A stretch of 7,748 nt of DNA, from NCBI GenBank assembly GCA_021804195.1, contig JAJZKJ010000093.1, positions 1-7,748 on the forward strand, given 5' to 3'. The translations under genes and the position numbers were made by a program. The notes under the pieces are model-generated. The model was not told the DNA's origin and ran no database searches. It saw only the letters and a list, made by a program, of their open reading frames with translations. Shown here piece by piece: positions 1 through 7,748 of the stretch (positions are counted from its first letter, which is position 1; every line of letters begins with the position of its first letter). The stretch is from Acidobacteriota bacterium. GTDB lineage: Bacteria; Planctomycetota; Phycisphaerae; WQYP01; JAJZKJ01.

Positions 1-1248
1 GAGCCATTCCGTCGATCCAGCCTCTAGTGCTCTGTCAGCCGTGTAATGATGGATTGACGGCGGGCCAGAGGGCCGTGGGCGCGAAGCGAGGAGGATGGCG
101 TATGCAAACATACGTTGACGACGAGCGACAAAGCCCACGGCCCTCTGGCCCCCGCCCGCAGGGTTGGCCGGAAACGGGCCATCTGCGGCGTCGCAGCGGC
201 TCAAGGGGTCTACGGACCCGGTTTTCGCCGCTGGCTCCTTGCATCTGGCCCGTTTCCGGCCAATCAATCCATCATTACACGGCTGACAGAGCACTAGCCA
301 GGACCAGCGCTGCGCCCGCTCTCCCGCGTGGAGGTCCAAAAAATAAATTGTGCCGGCGCTTATCGTCGCGGTCATCACCGCCAATCCGAACAGCCCCGTC
401 CGAATTCGCCGCGTCGCCAGGCGAATCAGCAATATCACCACGAGCACAATCGGTCCGCACGCCAGGGCCGCGATACGCCAAATCTTTGGCGCCGGCGGCG
501 CGGGTGCGCCCAATCGCCGCAATCGCTCTACTATTACCGGCGGAAGGGATGTGGCGGCCCGGCTCTCCCACAATTTCCGGTTGGCAGCCGGCGGGGTCAC
601 CCACGCGCTCGCCGGCAACCAGCGGGGCGGCTGATGGCCGGCGTAAATCAGTCGGGTTCCGACGCCGAAGAATTGCAGCGCCCGCCGACGGCTCAGAAGC
701 GCTGCGCTTCGGCGGTTGAGCAGTATGGCGCAGCAGGATGAAAAATCCAGTGGAGGCGAGCGCAACAATTCTGCGGCGGTGATCGGCATGGCGGCGAGAC
801 GGGCCGGCTTAAACAAGACTGCGATTTTCGAGAGCAAACCGGTTGTGCCCGGCGGTATCGCCACGACCACGCGCGGCGCGCCGAGGCTTGCCGGAATTCG
901 TACTTGAATTTTCCATGTTCGCTTGCGCCCGCCGTTTGTTTGCTCAGTCAGAATTACAGGCCAACGGCCCATCGGCAGTGTGGCGGGGGCGACATACGCC
1001 AGCGGGACCAGGACATGCCGGCGACCATTGTTGTCGCGGCACACCGTCTCCGGTCCGCCGCGGGCGTCGCGAATGGTTAAACGCAGCGATTGCCGGCTCA
1101 GCCGGTGTGACAACGCAATCCGCAGCGCAGCCCAGCCGCCCGGTTTCGGCGGCGCACCGGCAGCCAGGCGGACGGCAACCGCTGAAACTCGCGGCGATGA
1201 GATAGTCAATAGAAAAACTGCAACCAGCGCCGTTGCTGGCAGCCTCAC
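1..1248 (-). CDS. Exported membrane protein of unknown function, partial, carrying an in-frame foldback-element insertion
   Basis: I do not recognise this protein with certainty. The frame is open for 416 codons from a GTG at 1248-1246 and leaves the window at the left edge, so the C-terminus is missing. It begins with a good signal peptide (MRLPATALVAVFLLTI, then an AxA-like VSA near residues 21-23). About 230 soluble residues follow, starting with a KPGGWAALRI stretch that resembles Ig-like beta domains of large planctomycete membrane proteins (inference). Two hydrophobic segments lie at about residues 259-275 and 285-304. No other ATG, GTG or TTG lies upstream in frame before the rsmB region, which favours this start; the GTG overlaps the stop of a short upstream ORF, so translation may be coupled. 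Host residues run to W317. Residues 319-408 are encoded by the foldback element, then the frame continues as EAGSTEWL. Without the insertion the join is also in frame (RWSWLEAG). Whether the product still works is unknown. Confidence 0.62.
   Translation of the reverse strand, partial: MRLPATALVAVFLLTISSPRVSAVAVRLAAGAPPKPGGWAALRIALSHRLSRQSLRLTIRDARGGPETVCRDNNGRRHVLVPLAYVAPATLPMGRWPVILTEQTNGGRKRTWKIQVRIPASLGAPRVVVAIPPGTTGLLSKIAVLFKPARLAAMPITAAELLRSPPLDFSSCCAILLNRRSAALLSRRRALQFFGVGTRLIYAGHQPPRWLPASAWVTPPAANRKLWESRAATSLPPVIVERLRRLGAPAPPAPKIWRIAALACGPIVLVVILLIRLATRRIRTGLFGLAVMTATISAGTIYFLDLHAGERAQRWSWLVLCQPCNDGLIGRKRARCKEPAAKTGSVDPLSRCDAADGPFPANPAGGGQRAVGFVARRQRMFAYAILLASRPRPSGPPSIHHYTADRALEAGSTEWL
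24..57 (+). repeat. Left terminal inverted repeat of the foldback element
   Basis: This 34-bp arm is the exact reverse complement of 264-297. Its outermost bases, TAGTGCTCTGTC, recur once more in the window at 3021-3032. The perfect match between arms suggests a recent insertion or strong constraint. Confidence 0.9.
62..151. repeat. Internal arm 1 of the foldback element: 19-bp perfect inverted repeat with nested hairpin
   Basis: Positions 62-80 (starting GGGCCAGAGGG) pair perfectly with 133-151. The 52-nt loop contains a second perfect hairpin, CGTATG at 99-104 and CATACG at 109-114, closed by the loop CAAA. The loop also contains GAGGAGG (88-94) seven bases before an ATG at 102-104, a textbook Shine-Dalgarno arrangement on the plus strand. 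Confidence 0.85.
164..263. repeat. Internal arm 2 of the foldback element: 18-bp perfect inverted repeat with two nested stems
   Basis: Positions 164-181 pair perfectly with 246-263. Inside, CAGCGGC at 194-200 pairs with GCCGCTG at 227-233. Inside that, GGGTC at 206-210 pairs with GACCC at 215-219 around the loop TACG. Read as plus-strand RNA the innermost hairpin is a C(UACG)G loop of the very stable UNCG class, whereas the complementary strand would give CGUA. This hints that any functional RNA would be the plus-strand one (inference). Confidence 0.85.
264..297 (-). repeat. Right terminal inverted repeat of the foldback element
   Basis: This is the exact reverse complement of 24-57. It directly abuts the end of the second internal arm (246-263), leaving no spacer at that side of the predicted three-way junction. 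Confidence 0.9.
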
Positions 1249-1343
1249 CCCTGGCAGTGATTGGCGTCGTTGCGAACTTCGATTTTGGCAAACGTTCCCG
1301 GATAGAATAGGCGAAGTCCTTGGAAAAAATCCCGCCGGTTCAT
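1245..1343 (-). CDS. Possible 32-residue leader ORF overlapping the membrane-protein start
   Basis: An ATG at 1343-1341 opens a 32-codon ORF (MNRRDFFQGLRLFYPG...) that stops with TGA at 1247-1245. The stop overlaps the GTG start of the membrane-protein gene as GTGA, the usual geometry of translational coupling. No good Shine-Dalgarno sequence precedes the ATG (a GGGGGAG lies about 15 nt away, too far). It could be a leader peptide, the original N-terminus of the gene separated by a frameshift, or chance. The downstream signal peptide looks complete by itself, which argues against a simple frameshift. Confidence 0.28.
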   Translation of the reverse strand: MNRRDFFQGLRLFYPGTFAKIEVRNDANHCQG

Positions 1344-1421
1344 GACGATTGGGAATTCTCCCCCGCCATCCCCAAATACCACTTGAGTCTAACACTTTTT
1401 CCCGTGAACGTTTATGAATGT

Positions 1422-1430
1422 TGCTATGAT
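1422..1430 (+). promoter_or_regulatory. Extended -10 promoter candidate for rsmB
   Basis: TGC followed by TATGAT matches the extended -10 pattern TGnTATAAT with one mismatch. No convincing -35 box lies 16-18 bases upstream (TTGAGT at 1383-1388 is too far), as is allowed for extended -10 promoters. A start point about seven bases downstream falls at 1437-1438, directly on the ATG preferred for rsmB, so the message could be leaderless. Confidence 0.35.
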
Positions 1431-1437
1431 GTTCACC

Positions 1438-2874
1438 ATGGAGACCAATGCCCGTGCGGTGGCGGTGGAGTTGCTGGCGCGATGGCGGCATCTTCACGAG
1501 CCGCCGCTTATTCCGGAGCATAAGAGCGCATTCTGGTCCAATCTTTCCCCGCGCGATCGGGTGTTGGCGTTCGATCTGATTCACGGAATCATACGCTGGC
1601 GCGGCACGCTGGATCATATTATACGGATTTCGCTGCGCCGCTCCGACGATCAACTGGAGCCGCTGGTACGAGCCATTCTTCAACTGGGGGCCTATCAATT
1701 GCTTATGCAGAACGGCGCGGCCGATTACGCCGTCATCGACACTAGCGTGAACCTGGCTCGCCAGCGCGGCGCGGCACGCGCTGCGGGCCTGGTCAATGCC
1801 GTTCTGCGTCATATTCAGCGGCTGCGCGTGGGCGCCCAACCGCGGCAGGCGCCGCGGCCCGATACGTTTGCACTCGATGCCCGGCGACAAATGCGATTAT
1901 CCAAACCAATTTTTCCTGACCCGAAAACGGATTTTCCCGCCTATCTTGCCGCCGCCGCCAGTCATCCGCCGGAACTGGTCGCGGCCATGCTGGCCTGGCT
2001 CGGGCCGGATCTCATTTTGCCGATGATGATCGCTGATAATTGCCGGCCGCCGATTGTACTGCGGGCGGATCGGACGGATTTCTCACCGCCGCTCGATGCC
2101 GGCTTGCGACCTCATGAAGAGCCGGGCTATTTTCTTGCCGCCGCCGGTTGGACGCCGTCCGTGGAAGAACTTGTCCAGCGTGGCGAACTTTCTCCCCAGG
2201 ATTCCACCGCCGGTCTTGCCGTGCGCGAGTTGATCGGGCTGCTCAAGAACCGATCCATGGAACAACCCGTCGATGCGTCCGCGCACACGGAAAGATCGGC
2301 CAATCTGAAAATTCTTGATTTATGCGCCGGCCTGGGCACCAAGACCGTACAACTGGCGCGCGCCTTGCCCACCGCTGATATCACCGCCGCCGATATGGCG
2401 CCGGAAAAACTCCAGCGACTCTCGCTTTGTGTTCGCCGGCTGGGTCTGACCAACGTGCGTGTTTTACCGGTGGCAATGATTGAATCCGATACCGGGAGCT
2501 ATCCCGACGGCGCTCGGGACAGGTCGTTCGATATTATTTTGGTCGACGCGCCCTGCTCCAATACCGGCGTTTTGGCTCGTCGCGTCCAGTCGCGCTGGCG
2601 CTGGCCCGTGCTGAACCGCGCCGCCCTGTTTGAGCAACAGCGTAAATTGCTCCAGTGGGCGGCGGGGGTTCTCGCCAACCGGGGATGGCTGGTTTACAGC
2701 ACGTGCAGCATCGATCCGGAGGAGAACCGTTCCGGCGTAACCGAAGCGCTGTTGCAAGACCGGCAAAGTTCCTGGCGCGTGCTTAGCGAAAAAGCCGTGT
2801 TGCCCGCGGATACCGGCGATCCCGCGCAGCGCCGCGATGGCGGCTTTATCTGTATCTTACGCCGCGATGGCTGA
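1438..2874 (+). CDS. rsmB: 16S rRNA (cytosine-5-)-methyltransferase RsmB
   Basis: RsmB methylates C5 of a 16S rRNA cytosine (C967 in E. coli numbering) using S-adenosylmethionine, in the cytoplasm during small-subunit assembly. The N-terminal 130 residues or so are a NusB-like RNA-binding domain (ARAVAVELL, RDRVLAFDLIHGIIRWR, LVNAVLRHI). The C-terminal Rossmann methyltransferase domain shows motif I LDLCAGLGTKT (about residues 293-303), motif IV DAPCSNTG (370-377, with C373) and motif VI STCSIDPEEN (421-430, with the expected nucleophile C423). It ends with the usual DGGFICILRR. The length of 478 residues is somewhat above the usual 430-450, because of linkers after the NusB domain and before motif I. 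ATGs at 1414, 1426, 1429 and 1438 are all in frame. I prefer 1438 (METNARAVAVE) because it fits the family's N-terminus and a -10 box overlaps the earlier ones; none has a Shine-Dalgarno site. Confidence 0.93.
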   Translation: METNARAVAVELLARWRHLHEPPLIPEHKSAFWSNLSPRDRVLAFDLIHGIIRWRGTLDHIIRISLRRSDDQLEPLVRAILQLGAYQLLMQNGAADYAVIDTSVNLARQRGAARAAGLVNAVLRHIQRLRVGAQPRQAPRPDTFALDARRQMRLSKPIFPDPKTDFPAYLAAAASHPPELVAAMLAWLGPDLILPMMIADNCRPPIVLRADRTDFSPPLDAGLRPHEEPGYFLAAAGWTPSVEELVQRGELSPQDSTAGLAVRELIGLLKNRSMEQPVDASAHTERSANLKILDLCAGLGTKTVQLARALPTADITAADMAPEKLQRLSLCVRRLGLTNVRVLPVAMIESDTGSYPDGARDRSFDIILVDAPCSNTGVLARRVQSRWRWPVLNRAALFEQQRKLLQWAAGVLANRGWLVYSTCSIDPEENRSGVTEALLQDRQSSWRVLSEKAVLPADTGDPAQRRDGGFICILRRDG

Positions 2875-2902: not shown

Positions 2903-3020
2903 CGGGCCAAGGTTCGATTGTCTCCCGATAGTCCCGATGGATAGCGACCCGATGGATGGCCAGAGGAATCGTCCAATCGCCACCCCGTCGAATTCGTCAT
3001 ATACTTTCCGCACTGGCGGT

Positions 3021-3032
3021 TAGTGCTCTGTC
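3021..3032 (+). repeat. Isolated copy of the foldback-element outer end
   Basis: TAGTGCTCTGTC is identical to the outer 12 bases of the element at the left of the window, after which the sequences diverge (TCAAAACAG here, AGCCGTGT there). No matching inverted end follows within the window. It may be the remaining end of a related, deleted or full-length-type insertion sequence. It lies 80 bases before the GH92 start codon. Confidence 0.5.
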
Positions 3033-3102
3033 TCAAAACAGTAGTGTTGCAAGAGCTTAACCCGTCGCATAGTGTCATGGAACGGTTGGTTTCTTTATTG
3101 AT

Positions 3103-3106: not shown

Positions 3107-3111
3107 TCATG

Positions 3112-5550
3112 ATGAAAGGCCGTGTTTTTCATCGTTTGCCGCGGCGGGTTTTTTTGAAGGCCTGCGCTCTGGCCGCCACCGCCGGTTCTTTTTCCGGCCC
3201 CTTGTGGGCGGCGGATCCTATTGCCTCCGTTAGCGGGCGAATTCATAAAAAAGGTTCATCACCATACCCCGGGCACACCCAGCGGGTGCTTCCGATTATC
3301 GGCACCGGATGGCGCGGGCATACGTTTCCCGGAGCCACGGCGCCGTTTGGACTGCTGCAGTTAAGCCCGGATACCGCCGGGCCACCGGAGCCGAATTACA
3401 ACTGGAATCATTGTTCGGGTTATCACTATCCGGATCAGACGGTGTTGGGATTCAGCCATACGCATCTGCAGGGCACGGGCGCAAGGGATCTTGGCGACGT
3501 GTTGCTCATGCCGGTGGTGGAGGGGCGGAATTGGGGTTGGGATGCCGGCGCCCCGGGCGCCGAGCATGAAGTGCAGATCGAAGCGTTGGGGCCCAATACC
3601 GGCTGGGTATCCAGGTCCGATCACCATGGTTACGCCTCGCGTTTTTCGCATCAGCAGGAGGTGGTTCGGACTGGTTATTACAGCGTGTACCTGCAAACAC
3701 CGCGCGTGAAAGCGGAGCTTACGGCGACGACCCGCTGCGGTATGCACCGGTATACATACCCGGCATTGCCGGCCTCTACGCAGCGGGGCGTGATCATGGA
3801 TCTGGTCCATGGCCTGGGATGCACGGTTTACCACGCGGCGTTGAACATGGAAAGTCCATCGCGCATCAGCGGCAAACGTTATACCCATGGATGGGCCAAG
3901 GACAGGCAAATCTATTTTGTCATGGAGTTCTCCCGCCCCCTGGCTGGTGCGCAGGTTAAGGTGGATGGCAAGATCCGCCGGGCCGCCACGGGGGACCGAT
4001 TCGCGGGTACACATATCAAGGCCATGTTCCACCCGGCGCCGGGATCGGAATCGCTGGTGATTCGCGTGGGCATTTCCTGCACCAGCATCGCCGGCGCAAA
4101 AAAGAATCTGGCCGCCGAGATGCCACACTGGGATTTTGACGCCCTTCGGCAGCAGGCCGAACAGGCCTGGAATCAGGCGTTAGCGGTCCTGGATGCCGAT
4201 TTTCCGGATCAGGCGCTTGCTCAAACTTTCTATACCGGCGCTTACCATGGCTTGGTGGCCCCGGCGACATTTAATGATGTGGACGGAACCTACCGCGGCC
4301 AGGATCATGGAAATCATCCCAATCCGGGATTCACCAACTACACCACTTTGTCGATATGGGATATTTTTCGCAGTGAATTTCCCTTGATTATGCTCATGCA
4401 GCCGCACCGCACCACGGATATTATCCACACACTCCTGGTCGACTACCGGCAGCTCAATCAGCACTCGCTGCCGATCTGGCCTTTATGGGGTAATGAAACG
4501 TGGTGCATGGACGGATTTCATGTTGTGAGCATGATCCTGGGAGCCTATGTCCGTGGGTTCCGCAATTTTGATGTGCCGGCCGCCTACGCCGCCATGCGTG
4601 ATACGGCTTTGGTTGGCGCCATCCCCAACGGCAACAGGGAATCGCAGGAACAATTTCGGCATGATGGCTATGTGCCCACGGGGCACGGCCAGGGATCGGT
4701 CTCGCGCTCACTCGATTTCGCCTACGATTGCTGGTGTGTGGGCGCCATGGCCGAGTTGCTGGGCAAGCGCGATGACGCCGCAATGTTCTACAAACTGGGA
4801 CAGAACTATAAGAATCTCTTTGATCCAAAGACCGGATTTATGCGGTGCAAAACGAAAGAGGGCCGATGGCGTGCGCCGTTCCGCCCGGATCAGGAACATG
4901 GGTACACGGAGTGCGACGCCTGGCAGGCGACATTTAATGTCATGCAGGATGTGCAGGGCTTGATTGATCTTTTTGGCGGAGATAAGCCGTTTATCGCCAA
5001 GCTGGATGCTCTGTTTGCCGCGCCATCCCACGGTCCATCGGATATCGATATCACCGGCATGGTGGGTCAGGACGCCCAGGGCAATGAACCAAGCAACCAT
5101 ATTCCGTACCTGTATCCTTTTGGCGGCGCGGCCTGGAAGACGCAGTATTGGATGCGAAAGGTGGCGGCGTTGTATCGCCACACTCCGGGGGGTATTCCAG
5201 GCAACGATGATTGCGGCCAGTTGTCAAGCTGGTTTGTTTTTGCGGCACTGGGCTTCTATCCGGTTAACCCCGCAACGGGGGTTTATGTGATTGGCAGCCC
5301 GCTGGTAAATCGGGCTGCAATTCACAACCCGGCGCAGGGGACCACCTTTGCCATCATAGCCGAGAACAATTCACATGAGAATGTATATATACAAAATGTT
5401 CAACTCAACGGCAAGGATTTGCCGCGGTCCTGGTTTGCGCATGCGGATATACTCGCGGGCGGGGAACTGCGCTTCCGGATGGGTTCAAAGCCCAACAAGG
5501 AATGGGCGTCCGCCCCGGCGGATCGGCCCCCTTCCGGGTTGGTTCCCTGA
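3112..5550 (+). CDS. GH92 family alpha-mannosidase, Tat-exported
   Basis: GH92 enzymes are calcium-dependent inverting exo-alpha-mannosidases (1,2-, 1,3-, 1,4- or 1,6-linkages) that trim mannans and N-glycans outside the cytoplasm. The 812-residue product starts with a Tat signal: twin arginine in RRVFLK (residues 11-16), hydrophobic ACALAATAG, likely cleavage near LWAA (31-34). The N-terminal beta-sandwich domain has GTGWRGHTFPGA (64-75) and GYHYPDQTVLGFSHTHLQGTG (around 103-123). The (alpha/alpha)6 domain has DVDGTYRGQDH, WGNETWCMDGFH (E462), GYVPTGHGQGSVSRSLDFAY, YTECDAWQATF, GNEPSNHIPYLYPFGG, and PGNDDCGQLSSWFVFAALGFY (D699, D700). In the characterised homologue BT3990 the acid is a Glu and the base an Asp; E462 and D699/D700 are the likely counterparts by motif. 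The end (RMGSKPNKEW) is that of a complete family member. It stands alone, with no transporter or other glycosidase beside it; linkage specificity cannot be read from sequence. Confidence 0.95.
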   Translation: MKGRVFHRLPRRVFLKACALAATAGSFSGPLWAADPIASVSGRIHKKGSSPYPGHTQRVLPIIGTGWRGHTFPGATAPFGLLQLSPDTAGPPEPNYNWNHCSGYHYPDQTVLGFSHTHLQGTGARDLGDVLLMPVVEGRNWGWDAGAPGAEHEVQIEALGPNTGWVSRSDHHGYASRFSHQQEVVRTGYYSVYLQTPRVKAELTATTRCGMHRYTYPALPASTQRGVIMDLVHGLGCTVYHAALNMESPSRISGKRYTHGWAKDRQIYFVMEFSRPLAGAQVKVDGKIRRAATGDRFAGTHIKAMFHPAPGSESLVIRVGISCTSIAGAKKNLAAEMPHWDFDALRQQAEQAWNQALAVLDADFPDQALAQTFYTGAYHGLVAPATFNDVDGTYRGQDHGNHPNPGFTNYTTLSIWDIFRSEFPLIMLMQPHRTTDIIHTLLVDYRQLNQHSLPIWPLWGNETWCMDGFHVVSMILGAYVRGFRNFDVPAAYAAMRDTALVGAIPNGNRESQEQFRHDGYVPTGHGQGSVSRSLDFAYDCWCVGAMAELLGKRDDAAMFYKLGQNYKNLFDPKTGFMRCKTKEGRWRAPFRPDQEHGYTECDAWQATFNVMQDVQGLIDLFGGDKPFIAKLDALFAAPSHGPSDIDITGMVGQDAQGNEPSNHIPYLYPFGGAAWKTQYWMRKVAALYRHTPGGIPGNDDCGQLSSWFVFAALGFYPVNPATGVYVIGSPLVNRAAIHNPAQGTTFAIIAENNSHENVYIQNVQLNGKDLPRSWFAHADILAGGELRFRMGSKPNKEWASAPADRPPSGLVP

Positions 5551-5626: not shown

Positions 5627-6706
5627 TTATGACGATGCCGGCGGGTGGGACCGCCCGGCCGCACCGGATGGCGGCGTTTCCATCCGGCCGAAGATCATTC
5701 TGCCGGCCGAGGTCTGAACCGCGTTGGTCACGAGCAATTCCACCTCCTGTCCGATACTGCCTCTGGCTCCCTCCACCACCACCATCGTTCCGTCTTCCAA
5801 ATAGCCGACGCCCTGGCTGACCGTTTCGCCGGGTTTGACAATTCGCACGCGCATCGGTTCGCCCGGCAGCACCATGGGTTTGAGCGCATTGGCCAGATCG
5901 TTAAGATTGACCACCTCCACCCCGTGCAACGAGGCAACCTTGTTGAGATTGTAATCGTTGGTGACGATCCGCCCGTTCTCCTGCCGGGCCAGCGCCACCA
6001 GTTTCTGGTCCACACCCTCCAGGGACGAGGCGTCGGCGAGTGTTCCATCCCACATGCGCAGCTCGACGCGCCGCATCGTCTGCAGACGGTGGAGCACATC
6101 CAGCCCGCGGCGTCCGCGACCCCGTTTGAGTTTGTCCGCCGAATCCGCCACGGTTTGCAGCTCGTTGAGGACGAACCGCGGAACAATCAGCCGGCTTTCA
6201 AAAACGCCCGTCGCGGCGATATCCGCAATCCGCCCATCGATAATCACGCTGGTGTCCAGGATGAATGGACGCGATCCCCGCATCGCCCGGCTGAACTCCA
6301 CGTAGGGAATGATGAAGCGAAAATCATCCTTGGTCTGCAAGATAAATGAAATCGACAGGTAGACGCATATCAGCCCGATCAGCAGTTTAATCCCCGTAAT
6401 CAGCGGTTCTTCCACCCGCATATCGACATGGGAAAAAAAGATGTCCGCCACTTGCTGCACCAGGTAACCCAGCGCCAGCGCCACCAGCATACCCACCAGA
6501 ATGCCCATGAACATGCCCGATAACGCCGCCAAGTTCTTCCTTTCCATCAGGAAGTCCAGCAGAATTACGGCAATGGAAATCACCACGCCGCTGGTCATCA
6601 CCAGGTATGGCCAGAGATACTGGCCGGAAACCGTCTGCGACAGGTATGCCAGCGCCACGGCCGATACCAGCACGATGAAAATCAAACGAATGATATTGAG
6701 AATCAT
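5627..6706 (-). CDS. Membrane-anchored PIN-TRAM domain protein (YacL-like)
   Basis: The 359-residue protein has the YacL architecture: four membrane helices, a PIN nuclease domain and a C-terminal TRAM RNA-binding domain. Helices lie at about residues 4-23, 31-53, 59-90 and 101-123. The PIN domain starts at RPFILDTSVIIDGRIAD; the acidic metal-binding set is probably D151, E182 (VLNELQ), D233 (GVDQKLVALA) and D251 (TNDYNLNKVA), with the RGRGRRGLD loop at 195-203. The TRAM domain covers about 282-342 (MRVRIVKPGETVSQGVGYLEDG). The family is a predicted membrane-attached ribonuclease; substrates are not firmly known. The frame is open for 94 codons further upstream, but that part lacks family similarity, while the ATG at 6706-6704 directly starts the first helix and has an AGGAG five bases before it. 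It ends with TAA, convergent with the GH92 gene 76 bp away. Confidence 0.92.
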   Translation of the reverse strand: MILNIIRLIFIVLVSAVALAYLSQTVSGQYLWPYLVMTSGVVISIAVILLDFLMERKNLAALSGMFMGILVGMLVALALGYLVQQVADIFFSHVDMRVEEPLITGIKLLIGLICVYLSISFILQTKDDFRFIIPYVEFSRAMRGSRPFILDTSVIIDGRIADIAATGVFESRLIVPRFVLNELQTVADSADKLKRGRGRRGLDVLHRLQTMRRVELRMWDGTLADASSLEGVDQKLVALARQENGRIVTNDYNLNKVASLHGVEVVNLNDLANALKPMVLPGEPMRVRIVKPGETVSQGVGYLEDGTMVVVEGARGSIGQEVELLVTNAVQTSAGRMIFGRMETPPSGAAGRSHPPASS

Positions 6707-6913: not shown

Positions 6914-6919
6914 TATGAT
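6914..6919 (+). promoter_or_regulatory. -10 candidate for the YjbQ-family gene
   Basis: TATGAT matches the -10 consensus in five of six positions and lies 67 bases before the start codon. No clear -35 box is visible upstream. This is the same hexamer as in the rsmB promoter candidate, but here without the TG extension. Confidence 0.22.
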
Positions 6920-6986
6920 CCGTAAGGCGGGGAGACAACAGGAGTCGCCAGGAAATTCAATCCATTTTGGGAAACAGTATTCGCCC

Positions 6987-7406
6987 ATGAAAAGCTATAC
7001 CGAATATCTTACGTTCAACGTACCGGCACGGATGGACTTTGTGAATATCACGCCGCGGTTGGAGGAGATTGTCGAAAAAAGCGGCGTTCGGGAGGGACTG
7101 CTGCTGTGCAACGCCATGCACATCACCGCGGCGGTGTTCATCAACGACAATGAATCCGGCCTGCATCAAGATTACAAGCAGTGGCTGGAACGACTGGCCC
7201 CGCACGCGCCAGTTTCACAATATCGCCATAACGATACCGGCGAGGACAACGCCGATGCGCACCTTAAACGTCAGGTCATGGGGCGCCAAGTGGTCGTCGC
7301 CATCACCAACGGCCGGCTCGACTTCGGTCCTTGGGAGCAGGTATTCTATGGCGAGTTCGATGGCCGGCGGAACAAACGCGTGCTGGTGAAAATCATCGGA
7401 GAGTGA
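6987..7406 (+). CDS. yjbQ: UPF0047/YjbQ family protein (secondary thiamine-phosphate synthase family)
   Basis: The 139-residue protein covers the whole YjbQ (UPF0047, TIGR00149) fold, whose usual length is about 135-140. The family is annotated as 'secondary thiamine-phosphate synthase' from weak activity; its true role is not settled. Seen here are [21 protein letters not shown] (H45 and the acidic NDNE loop), [22 protein letters not shown] (H81, D90, H92) and [15 protein letters not shown] near the end. These clustered His and acidic residues are the conserved, probably metal- or phosphate-binding, site. The version with [15 protein letters not shown] belongs to a well-populated bacterial subtype. 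An upstream in-frame ATG at 6915 would add 24 unrelated residues, so I take 6987 (MKSYTEYL), although neither has a good Shine-Dalgarno site. It is divergent from the PIN-TRAM gene. Confidence 0.9.
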
Positions 7407-7460: not shown

Positions 7461-7554
7461 CGGCGCAGCCGCAGCTCCACTCTCTACTTTCTACTTTCGC
7501 CCGCCGGCGGCGCAGCCGCAGCTCTACTCTCTACTTTCCACTTTCTTCCGCCGA
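7461..7554. repeat. Two tandem 47-bp hairpin plus pyrimidine-tract repeats
   Basis: Copies at 7461-7507 and 7508-7554 both begin CGGCGCAGCCGCAGCTC and continue with ACTCTCTACTTTC, differing at few positions. With the base before each copy, GCGGC and GCCGC form a 5-bp hairpin around GCA (7460-7472 and 7507-7519). The pyrimidine tract itself has a 7-bp ACTTTCT-like period. The array lies in the convergent spacer after the YjbQ gene, and its second copy covers the stop codon of the PEP-CTERM gene, so it may act in transcript ending for both sides (inference). Confidence 0.8.
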
Positions 7555-7748
7555 CGCTTCAGCAGCCCCAAGCCGCCCAATGCCAGTAAAGCCAGCGTGG
7601 ACGGTTCGGGCACCGCAGGCCCGCCAAACGCGATGCCTGGATCGAACGATGCCCCGGCGGTGGTGGGAATTACGTCGAGCGATACCGCCAGCGTCAAATT
7701 CCCGCCGGAGGAAAGACCGGTGAGCGGGCCAAGGTCAATCACCGGATT
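7524..7748 (-). CDS. PEP-CTERM sorting-signal protein, C-terminal part only
   Basis: Only the last 74 residues are in the window; the gene starts beyond the right edge. The tail has the full PEP-CTERM signal: VPEPS, a hydrophobic stretch TLALLALGGLGLL and the basic cluster KRRRKK. In the known system such proteins are exported by Sec and then processed at the PEP motif by an exosortase, often ending in extracellular polymers or on the surface. The preceding residues (PLTGLSSGGNLTLAVSLDV) look like a beta-rich secreted domain but are too few to classify. The final KVESRE and the TAG stop are encoded inside the 47-bp repeat, so the repeat has reshaped the C-terminus; signals usually end soon after the arginines. 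Confidence 0.88.
   Translation of the reverse strand, partial: NPVIDLGPLTGLSSGGNLTLAVSLDVIPTTAGASFDPGIAFGGPAVPEPSTLALLALGGLGLLKRRRKKVESRE

Follow-up and report, generated by a model that had tools for sequence, protein, structure and literature searches.

A miniature inverted-repeat element of planctomycete genomes carries two opposed hairpin modules that may act as a portable two-way transcription stop

We analyzed a 7,748-nucleotide stretch of DNA (contig JAJZKJ010000093.1, hereafter the window) and found that positions 24-297 are a copy of a non-autonomous transposable element resembling the miniature inverted-repeat transposable elements (MITEs). The element belongs to a real and widespread family of miniature elements. 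It is bounded by 34-bp terminal inverted repeats. Between these, a single type of hairpin module seems to be present twice, in inverted orientation, and in both cases the purine-rich strand that forms the structure runs inward from the module's own end. The explanation that we favor, to which we give about an even chance, is that of a MITE-like element mobilized in trans whose two modules would serve as a portable two-way stop for transcripts.

A preliminary description of this DNA had reported three perfect inverted repeats of 34, 19 and 18 bp, and all three were found exactly where it had placed them. The 34-bp repeat, with 100% complementarity between 24-57 and 264-297, forms the left (plus strand) and right (minus strand) terminal repeats, in which CTAG at 24-27 and 294-297 marks the target site, with TA or CTAG duplicated. 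The 19-bp repeat (62-80 and 133-151) is the basal stem of arm A (62-151). The 18-bp repeat (164-181 and 246-263), which a repeat-finding tool lengthened to 37 positions at 78%, is the basal stem of arm B (164-263). When the whole window was shuffled 200 times with dinucleotides preserved, perfect inverted repeats whose arms were less than 300 bp apart reached 15 bp at most, and did so once. The folding energy of 24-297 was -119.2 kcal/mol as DNA, compared with a shuffle mean of -53.8 (z -18.1), and -203.2 as RNA, compared with -110.5 (z -17.9). Both folds revealed the basal stem with two arms that had been proposed. The window had no Rfam match at the gathering score, so that the hairpin has no Rfam family, in agreement with the earlier statement that the element matched no named family; a permissive search returned mainly microRNA models of long hairpins, the best being MIR1437, whose score of 36 bits (E=0.00013) compares with a gathering threshold of 168. 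No conserved gene was found in the element: among 56 full-length copies, 26 had no stop-free frame, 21 had one and 9 had two.

The dispersal of the element is well supported by its copy number and by an empty site, and the proposal of a repeated foldback or MITE-like element was borne out by these 56 distinct full-length copies. In G000, the assembly given as the window's own (2.81 Mb, 86 contigs), 64 stretches matched the element at E≤0.001; three were full copies at 99-100% identity, two more were full copies at 84-85%, and many were partial, a number of them cut by contig ends. The copies are dispersed over unrelated sites. The word CTAGTGCTCTGTCA occurred 55 times in G000 with at most one mismatch, compared with 0 for its reversed control. 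Matches to the element were present in 20 of 61 genomes (G000 and 60 relatives), and of 18 genomes chosen for a search with the end word AGTGCTCTGTCA, 14 contained it, G022 alone 81 times, with its reversed control found once overall. The full-length copies were gathered from the window's genome and its family as BLAST matches of at least 200 of the 274 bases, lengthened to the full element; not all listed copies of relatives were fetched. One empty site was found: the locus in G001, a genome of the same genus, reads GAGTA-CTCG-CCAGG, compared with GAGTACTAG, TGC...GCA and CTAGCCAGG in succession in G000. CTAG was present at both ends in 32 of the 56 copies, at one end in 15 and at neither in 9; because CTAG is palindromic, duplication of TA is indistinguishable from duplication of CTAG. 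Among plasmids and phages, the whole element had no match at E≤0.001. The core pattern had 0 matches in viral_contigs, and the end pattern was found in five viral contigs, all of them in one common stretch with neither a second end nor a hairpin.

Comparison with G000 and G001 also revealed a join at the left edge of this copy. Window bases 1-23 matched G000:C40 up to base 77923, at the edge of a different copy, and the left flanks of the present copy in G000:C56 and G001 agreed with each other and were both unlike window 1-23. These bases therefore belong to another insertion site in G000. The assembly probably switched copies within the 34-bp repeat and so created the join there, or else two copies recombined. 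One base within the window element differed from G000. A long minus-strand frame (window 1-1890) stays open through the element, in G000 as well, with a net insertion of 270 bp, and in this it resembled the in-frame palindromes of Rickettsia. The idea of an in-frame insertion into a coding frame was dropped: differences between G000 and G001 upstream of the insertion site were distributed over the codon positions as 14, 5 and 12, and those downstream were even (21, 22 and 24), so the frame past the site is probably not coding. Additionally, locus L148 in G022 contains two element ends (1600-1690 and about 3760-3850) with at least 40 bp of identical outer flank in opposite orientation. Ten loci in G000 (L070, L071, L072, L073, L075, L076, L079, L080, L087 and L088) are palindromes of about 19-66 bp with both terminal repeats and little between them, and these look like collapsed copies.

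The structural conservation of the element is likewise well supported. In an alignment of the 56 copies and the window (57 rows, 299 columns), RNAalifold gave 79 pairs, 36 of which showed two-sided changes. With this structure given, 96.1% of cells were paired, whereas shuffles gave 86.5% and slid controls no more than 43.9%, and the covariation score was 0.293, compared with 0.122 and at most 0.062, respectively; the structure was taken from the same alignment and hence has an advantage over the slid controls. Two-sided changes affected 18 of 21 pairs of the terminal stem. In arm A they affected 7 of the 18 pairs of the base and 3 of the 7 pairs of the tip, and in the two outer helices of arm B, 4 of 11 pairs of one and 2 of 7 pairs of the other. 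The terminal repeats and both arms thus showed the compensatory changes across many copies that had been put forward as a check on selected structure, and neither of the two contrary outcomes, a single copy or arms that do not keep pairing, was seen.

Within one copy, the two terminal repeats differed on average by 1.96 of 34 bases, compared with 8.2 between copies. This comparison covered 53 copies, without the window row and without L126:1354, L129 and L118, which have lost or masked ends. The variable part of the repeat was positions 13-30 (1.11 within a copy versus 6.74 between copies), and 94 of the 106 ends had TGCTCTGT or TGCCCTGT at positions 5-12. Near-identity within, and not between, copies could stem from hairpin-templated repair between palindrome arms. 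If such repair also kept the pairing of the arms, the hairpin might have no function of its own and be the inherited middle of an old MITE lineage; that palindromes of this kind rearrange is evident from the roughly ten in G000 that look collapsed. We consider this account unlikely, because the internal loops of both arms rank among the most conserved stretches of the alignment, although arm-to-arm conversion cannot keep them, and because it is at odds with the strand-specific G.T excess and with the bare copies at gene ends that are described below.

Arm A on the plus strand and arm B on the minus strand were found to fold alike, each with purine-rich internal loops between a basal stem and a tip hairpin. 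In arm A, the purine-rich plus strand appears to be the folded one. Its 5' internal loop (GCGAAGCGAGGAGGAT, 81-96) is invariant or at least 90% identical in most columns of the 57 rows, and its 3' internal loop (TGACGACGAGCGACAAA, 116-132) is also conserved in the alignment; between them lies the covarying tip hairpin (98-115, GCGTATG-CAAA-CATACGT), the helix 5 in which three of the seven pairs changed on both sides. In arm B, the purine-rich strand is the minus strand (5' GATGCAAGGAGC ... GCGACGCCGCAGA). Here, the conserved internal loops GCGACGCCGCAGA (182-194) and GATGCAAGGAGCC (233-245), both read on the minus strand and both part of the pattern by which loci were selected, enclose the tip hairpin GGGTC-TACG-GACCC (206-219, minus strand), which was identified from the DNA fold and the alignment. 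By eye, GA stands opposite GA in the internal loops. As a separately conserved structure, the module combines a stem that covaries, fixed purine loops with GA facing GA, and a tip that varies. A covariance model, R1, built with copies of the window family, matched window 166-261 on the minus strand with 112.8 bits. A model of arm A found arm-B-type hairpins weakly on the expected strand (L153, E=0.0086; L177, E=0.0099). These weak cross-matches partly reflect the palindrome, since the model also matched the window's own arm A on the wrong strand (E=0.00017).

The strand on which each arm folds was examined through non-Watson-Crick cells, since G.T is tolerated on the strand that forms the stem, and such a cell reads A.C on the complementary strand. 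Read on the plus strand, the base of arm A showed 125 G.T versus 17 A.C, spread over several pairs, and its tip showed 45 versus 3. The terminal repeats showed 28 G.T versus 19 A.C, a small bias that is expected for double-stranded transposase sites. The base of arm B in the window family showed 62 G.T versus 17 A.C on the plus strand, with 53 of the 62 coming from one junction pair. When arm-B-type hairpins from all sources were read in the purine orientation, a MAFFT alignment gave 33 G.T versus 9 A.C (20 to 5 in window-family rows and 13 to 4 in other rows). An alignment fitted to the model (A4) gave 61 versus 5, a count that includes 5 of 45 rows at E>0.05 that are probably false. This result suggests that the two arms present their folding strand on opposite DNA strands, plus for arm A and minus for the B type, which speaks against one folded strand as the unit.

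The preliminary description had proposed that structure is under selection in the form of a three-way junction. Pairing is indeed kept in the stems and arms; the one-strand junction as the selected unit was not supported, in view of the one-arm relatives, the position of the arm B module on the other strand and the split of G.T cells between strands. According to this proposal, the whole element would fold as single-stranded DNA or as one RNA and be recognized as a junction. The DNA and RNA folds both give the junction, its basal stem and both arms covary, and elements in G044 with other arms fold likewise, with the two-arm layout and basal stem recovered in L140 (z -9.4) and L138 (z -4.8). 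The G044 elements (L138 1580-1741, L140 648-809 and L136 2779-2990) come from another family of the class and contain the window's end word, other arm sequences and no R1 match. Considering the single-arm relatives with the same kind of ends, the strand assignment of arm B and the low G.T excess of the terminal repeats, we regard selection on the junction itself as quite improbable.

Related elements were found in three architectures. Single-hairpin elements with terminal repeats span 164-177 bp (L242, L249, L255, L260, L262, L263, L267, L166 and L153). Double-hairpin loci have their hairpins in the order plus then minus; this was observed in nine of the ten double loci found with R1, all nine of them distinct loci in G064, G099 and G200, and likewise in the window family and the G035 family. 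Terminal repeats were readable in eight of the nine double loci, with spans of 272-322 bp, and none were found in L352. The third architecture is a bare hairpin without a detected terminal repeat, in some cases in tandem (L332 and L370). The terminal repeats themselves vary between elements, and many begin with CTAG or a near variant. The module is also found on its own and, singly, inside other such elements. In the inverted pair, a transcript entering from either side would meet that side's module in its folding orientation. In G131, we also observed L357, L356 and L247, which have IS1182-like ends, spans of 443, 255 and 261 bp, respectively, and one clear hairpin each.

To place the hairpin among genomes, we used R1 and the loop pattern of arm B. 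Of 294 genomes sampled from the window's phylum, 30 had R1 matches, often many each, and G000 was among them; these results correspond to 25 of 210 genera and, when the better genomes are taken alone, to 12 of 155. Rough negative controls gave 0 matches in 158 kb of transposase loci and, in 258 kb, one match at E=0.95 besides two element copies that had been supplied. With one genome per species, the loop pattern was found in 34 stretches. Twenty-three of them were in one metagenome-assembled genome (MAG) labelled Deltaproteobacteria (Zod_Metabat.169), seven were in MAGs labelled Planctomycetota or Phycisphaerae, and one each was in MAGs labelled Deltaproteobacteria, Myxococcota, Chloroflexi and Uhrbacteria, the labels being those of the record titles. 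In a cross-phylum alignment of 29 sequences, pairing was 94.0%, compared with 73.9% in shuffles. We propose, with confidence slightly short of even, that one structured hairpin, not described before, has been conserved from Planctomycetota to the MAGs of those four labels, that in some genomes it works as a free-standing hairpin at gene ends, and that it is also cargo of CTAG-targeting miniature elements whose ends are of two or more transposase families, IS1182-like and IS1380-like, in which it may have been doubled in inverted form to act on transcripts from both sides.

The bare hairpins were characterized at 26 loci, all from six genomes in another family of the phylum (f27). At 21 of the 26 bare loci, AAA preceded the stem and TTT followed it at a distance of no more than 6 bases, compared with 0 of 11 elements with terminal repeats, and 18 of the 26 were flanked by four A and four T. 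According to a crude gene caller, 11 bare loci were placed between convergent genes, 9 between tandem genes and 1 between divergent genes, 1 was inside an open reading frame (ORF), and 4 were unclassified; five comparison gaps in the same loci were tandem (3) or divergent (2). The stem started within 13 bp of a called stop codon at 15 of the 26 loci. From their sequence context and their placement at gene 3' ends, the bare hairpins look like bidirectional intrinsic terminators of genes. The most likely job of the module would then be at the RNA level, as a hairpin at transcript ends, and the whole element may be a portable stop or insulator that acts both ways, on transcripts coming in from either side. 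Another role at the RNA level would be that of a trans-acting small RNA, either produced by the element or consisting of it, with folded arms to which a protein binds. The fixed loops and covarying stems resemble those of structured RNAs; nonetheless, no promoter-like site was found in window 1-400 (a weak test for this phylum), one transcript cannot present both oppositely oriented modules, and no Rfam family applies, and we think a small RNA very improbable.

For mobilization, a DDE-type transposase supplied in trans would act on the 34-bp terminal repeats, including the CTAG target. Our best guess, by analogy with the ends of some sister elements, is a transposase of the IS1182 kind. IS1182 transposases (NF033551) were found in 16 of 28 genomes, above the cut-off in six, with at most 30 loci fetched per transposase search. 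Their ends begin with CTAG in G013 (CTAGGAGCCTGTCCGAGTAA), G018, G025 (one end), G027 and G160 (CTAGCAGCCCGTTGAAGAAGTG). In G160, where the IS1182-like gene scored 142.7 bits, below the cut-off of 270, the IS1182-like ends and the hairpin-element ends (TTAGCAGCCCGTGGTGAAAGTG) have 15 of 20 terminal bases in common. Upon comparison of 22 element ends with 12 insertion sequence (IS) ends, five element ends (L246, L247, L262, L267 and L173) matched an IS1182 end at 15-18 of 20 bases, above the shuffle 99th percentile of 13 of 20. Among the transposase families searched, no autonomous element with common ends was found in the same genome for the window family. A DDE_3 search of G000 gave none. DUF4096 was present in 2 of 14 genomes, neither G000 nor G022, and a terminal-repeat search was made in their loci. 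DDE_Tnp_1 was searched in 20 genomes. In the loci fetched from these transposase searches, no transposase gene lay between GTGCTCTGTCA ends, and the ORFs beside lone ends and around L204 included nothing convincing as an autonomous partner.

A different class of enzyme is invoked if the hairpins are likened to repetitive extragenic palindromic (REP) sequences and bacterial interspersed mosaic elements (BIMEs), or if the terminal repeats are those of Y1 transposases (RAYT- or TIRYT-type) that act on single strands. REP and BIME elements often lie near gene 3' ends. The present hairpins resemble them in being dispersed and in forming inverted pairs with internal mismatches, as BIMEs do, and Y1 domains were found in 15 of 16 genomes searched, a set without the f27 genomes that carry bare hairpins. 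Y1 genes between terminal repeats have been described (PMC3733652). However, G022, the genome richest in end words, had no Y1 match; of the 65 Y1 loci, 30 were fetched, and in these R1 gave only one match (E=0.95) and the end word occurred once, alone and with two mismatches. Moreover, the hairpin lacks a consistent GTAG/CGTC foot, with GTAG or CGTC within 12 bases of the stem at 1 of 26 bare loci (L333, by eye), is about 95 bases long compared with 20-40 for REP, is accompanied by outer repeats with CTAG in the elements, and was absent beside the Y1 genes examined. We therefore hold a REP-like or Y1-driven origin to be highly unlikely.

Returning to the trans-mobilized element with a two-way stop, several observations weigh against it. 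The strand preference is uneven: 43 of the 45 G.T cells in the tip of arm A come from one pair, and arm B of the window family without one junction pair shows 9 G.T versus 17 A.C on the plus strand. In the double locus L357 (G131, span 443 bp), the second hairpin is weak and points in the same direction. The placement of bare hairpins rests on the crude gene caller, 26 loci of one family and five comparison gaps. The 56 window-family copies show no 3'-end placement, with 22 tandem, 10 convergent, 9 divergent, 2 within ORFs and 13 at edges. The window arms have no T-run, and a terminator scan found nothing in them; that scan also missed the bare copy L257, because it allows loops of 3-8 only. 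With regard to the transposase, the IS1182 ends in G024, G061, G099 and G200 lack CTAG and are unlike the hairpin elements of those genomes (L301, L306, L317, L329 and L302), which lowered our confidence in the explanation. The window's own terminal repeat had 11 of 20 bases in common with the IS1182 end most like it, a value that shuffles also reach, and 15 of the 22 ends were at or below the shuffle 99th percentile. The IS1182 match in G000 was weak and lay in a 79-aa frame, G022 had no IS1182 match despite its 81 end words, and none of 54 transposase loci contained the hairpin. The common G061 end resembled IS5 and IS1182 ends equally (14 of 20), and the end of L259 (G266) resembled an IS1380 end of another genome (15 of 20). 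The latter result indicates that the hairpin does not seem to be tied to one transposase family. The IS1380 locus set beside L259 was L278 (G064).

We compared the element with known systems. MITEs of insertion sequences are familiar as a general class, and the element is like them in being short, gene-less and dispersed, with terminal inverted repeats, an empty site in a relative and a short palindromic target. In contrast to MITEs, its middle is filled by two conserved hairpin modules, and related modules occur with several types of terminal repeat; the element is thus set apart from known miniature elements because its hairpin is separately conserved and portable. The IS1182 family has the CTAG ends in common with some hairpin elements, and it differs in that the transposase loci examined lack the module and in its other end types. 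Terminator hairpins with a conserved DNA word also exist, as in the Neisseria uptake sequences. The bare copies are similar to these in being mostly A-run/T-run hairpins at gene ends with one common internal sequence, whereas the common part here is a purine loop motif in a structure of about 95 bases that is also the cargo of a mobile element. Searches of the literature on planctomycete MITEs, foldback elements, IS1182/CTAG and MITE terminators gave no match by title or by the start of the abstract, and papers found through words of its sequence were unrelated by title, which is not proof of novelty.

Elsewhere in the window, a lone TTAGTGCTCTGTCT at 3020-3033 lies upstream of a glycosyl hydrolase gene and is possibly a remnant end without a partner. 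The neighboring genes encode an RsmB/NusB ribosomal RNA methyltransferase (1414-2874), that glycosyl hydrolase of family GH92 (3109-5550), a PIN/TRAM protein (5630-6703) and a UPF0047 protein (6915-7406). By eye, the minus strand of 7524-7748 resembles a PEP-CTERM tail.

The terminal repeats, rewritten together within a copy, would be a clear example from nature of palindrome arms that change in concert. If the explanation favored here is true, one structure would link mobile DNA and gene-end signals: a hairpin used at many gene ends in a lineage would also travel, perhaps between phyla, inside miniature transposons. Miniature elements could then distribute ready-made transcription insulators, and the fixed-loop motif, as RNA or single-stranded DNA, would give a concrete handle with which to seek a binding partner.

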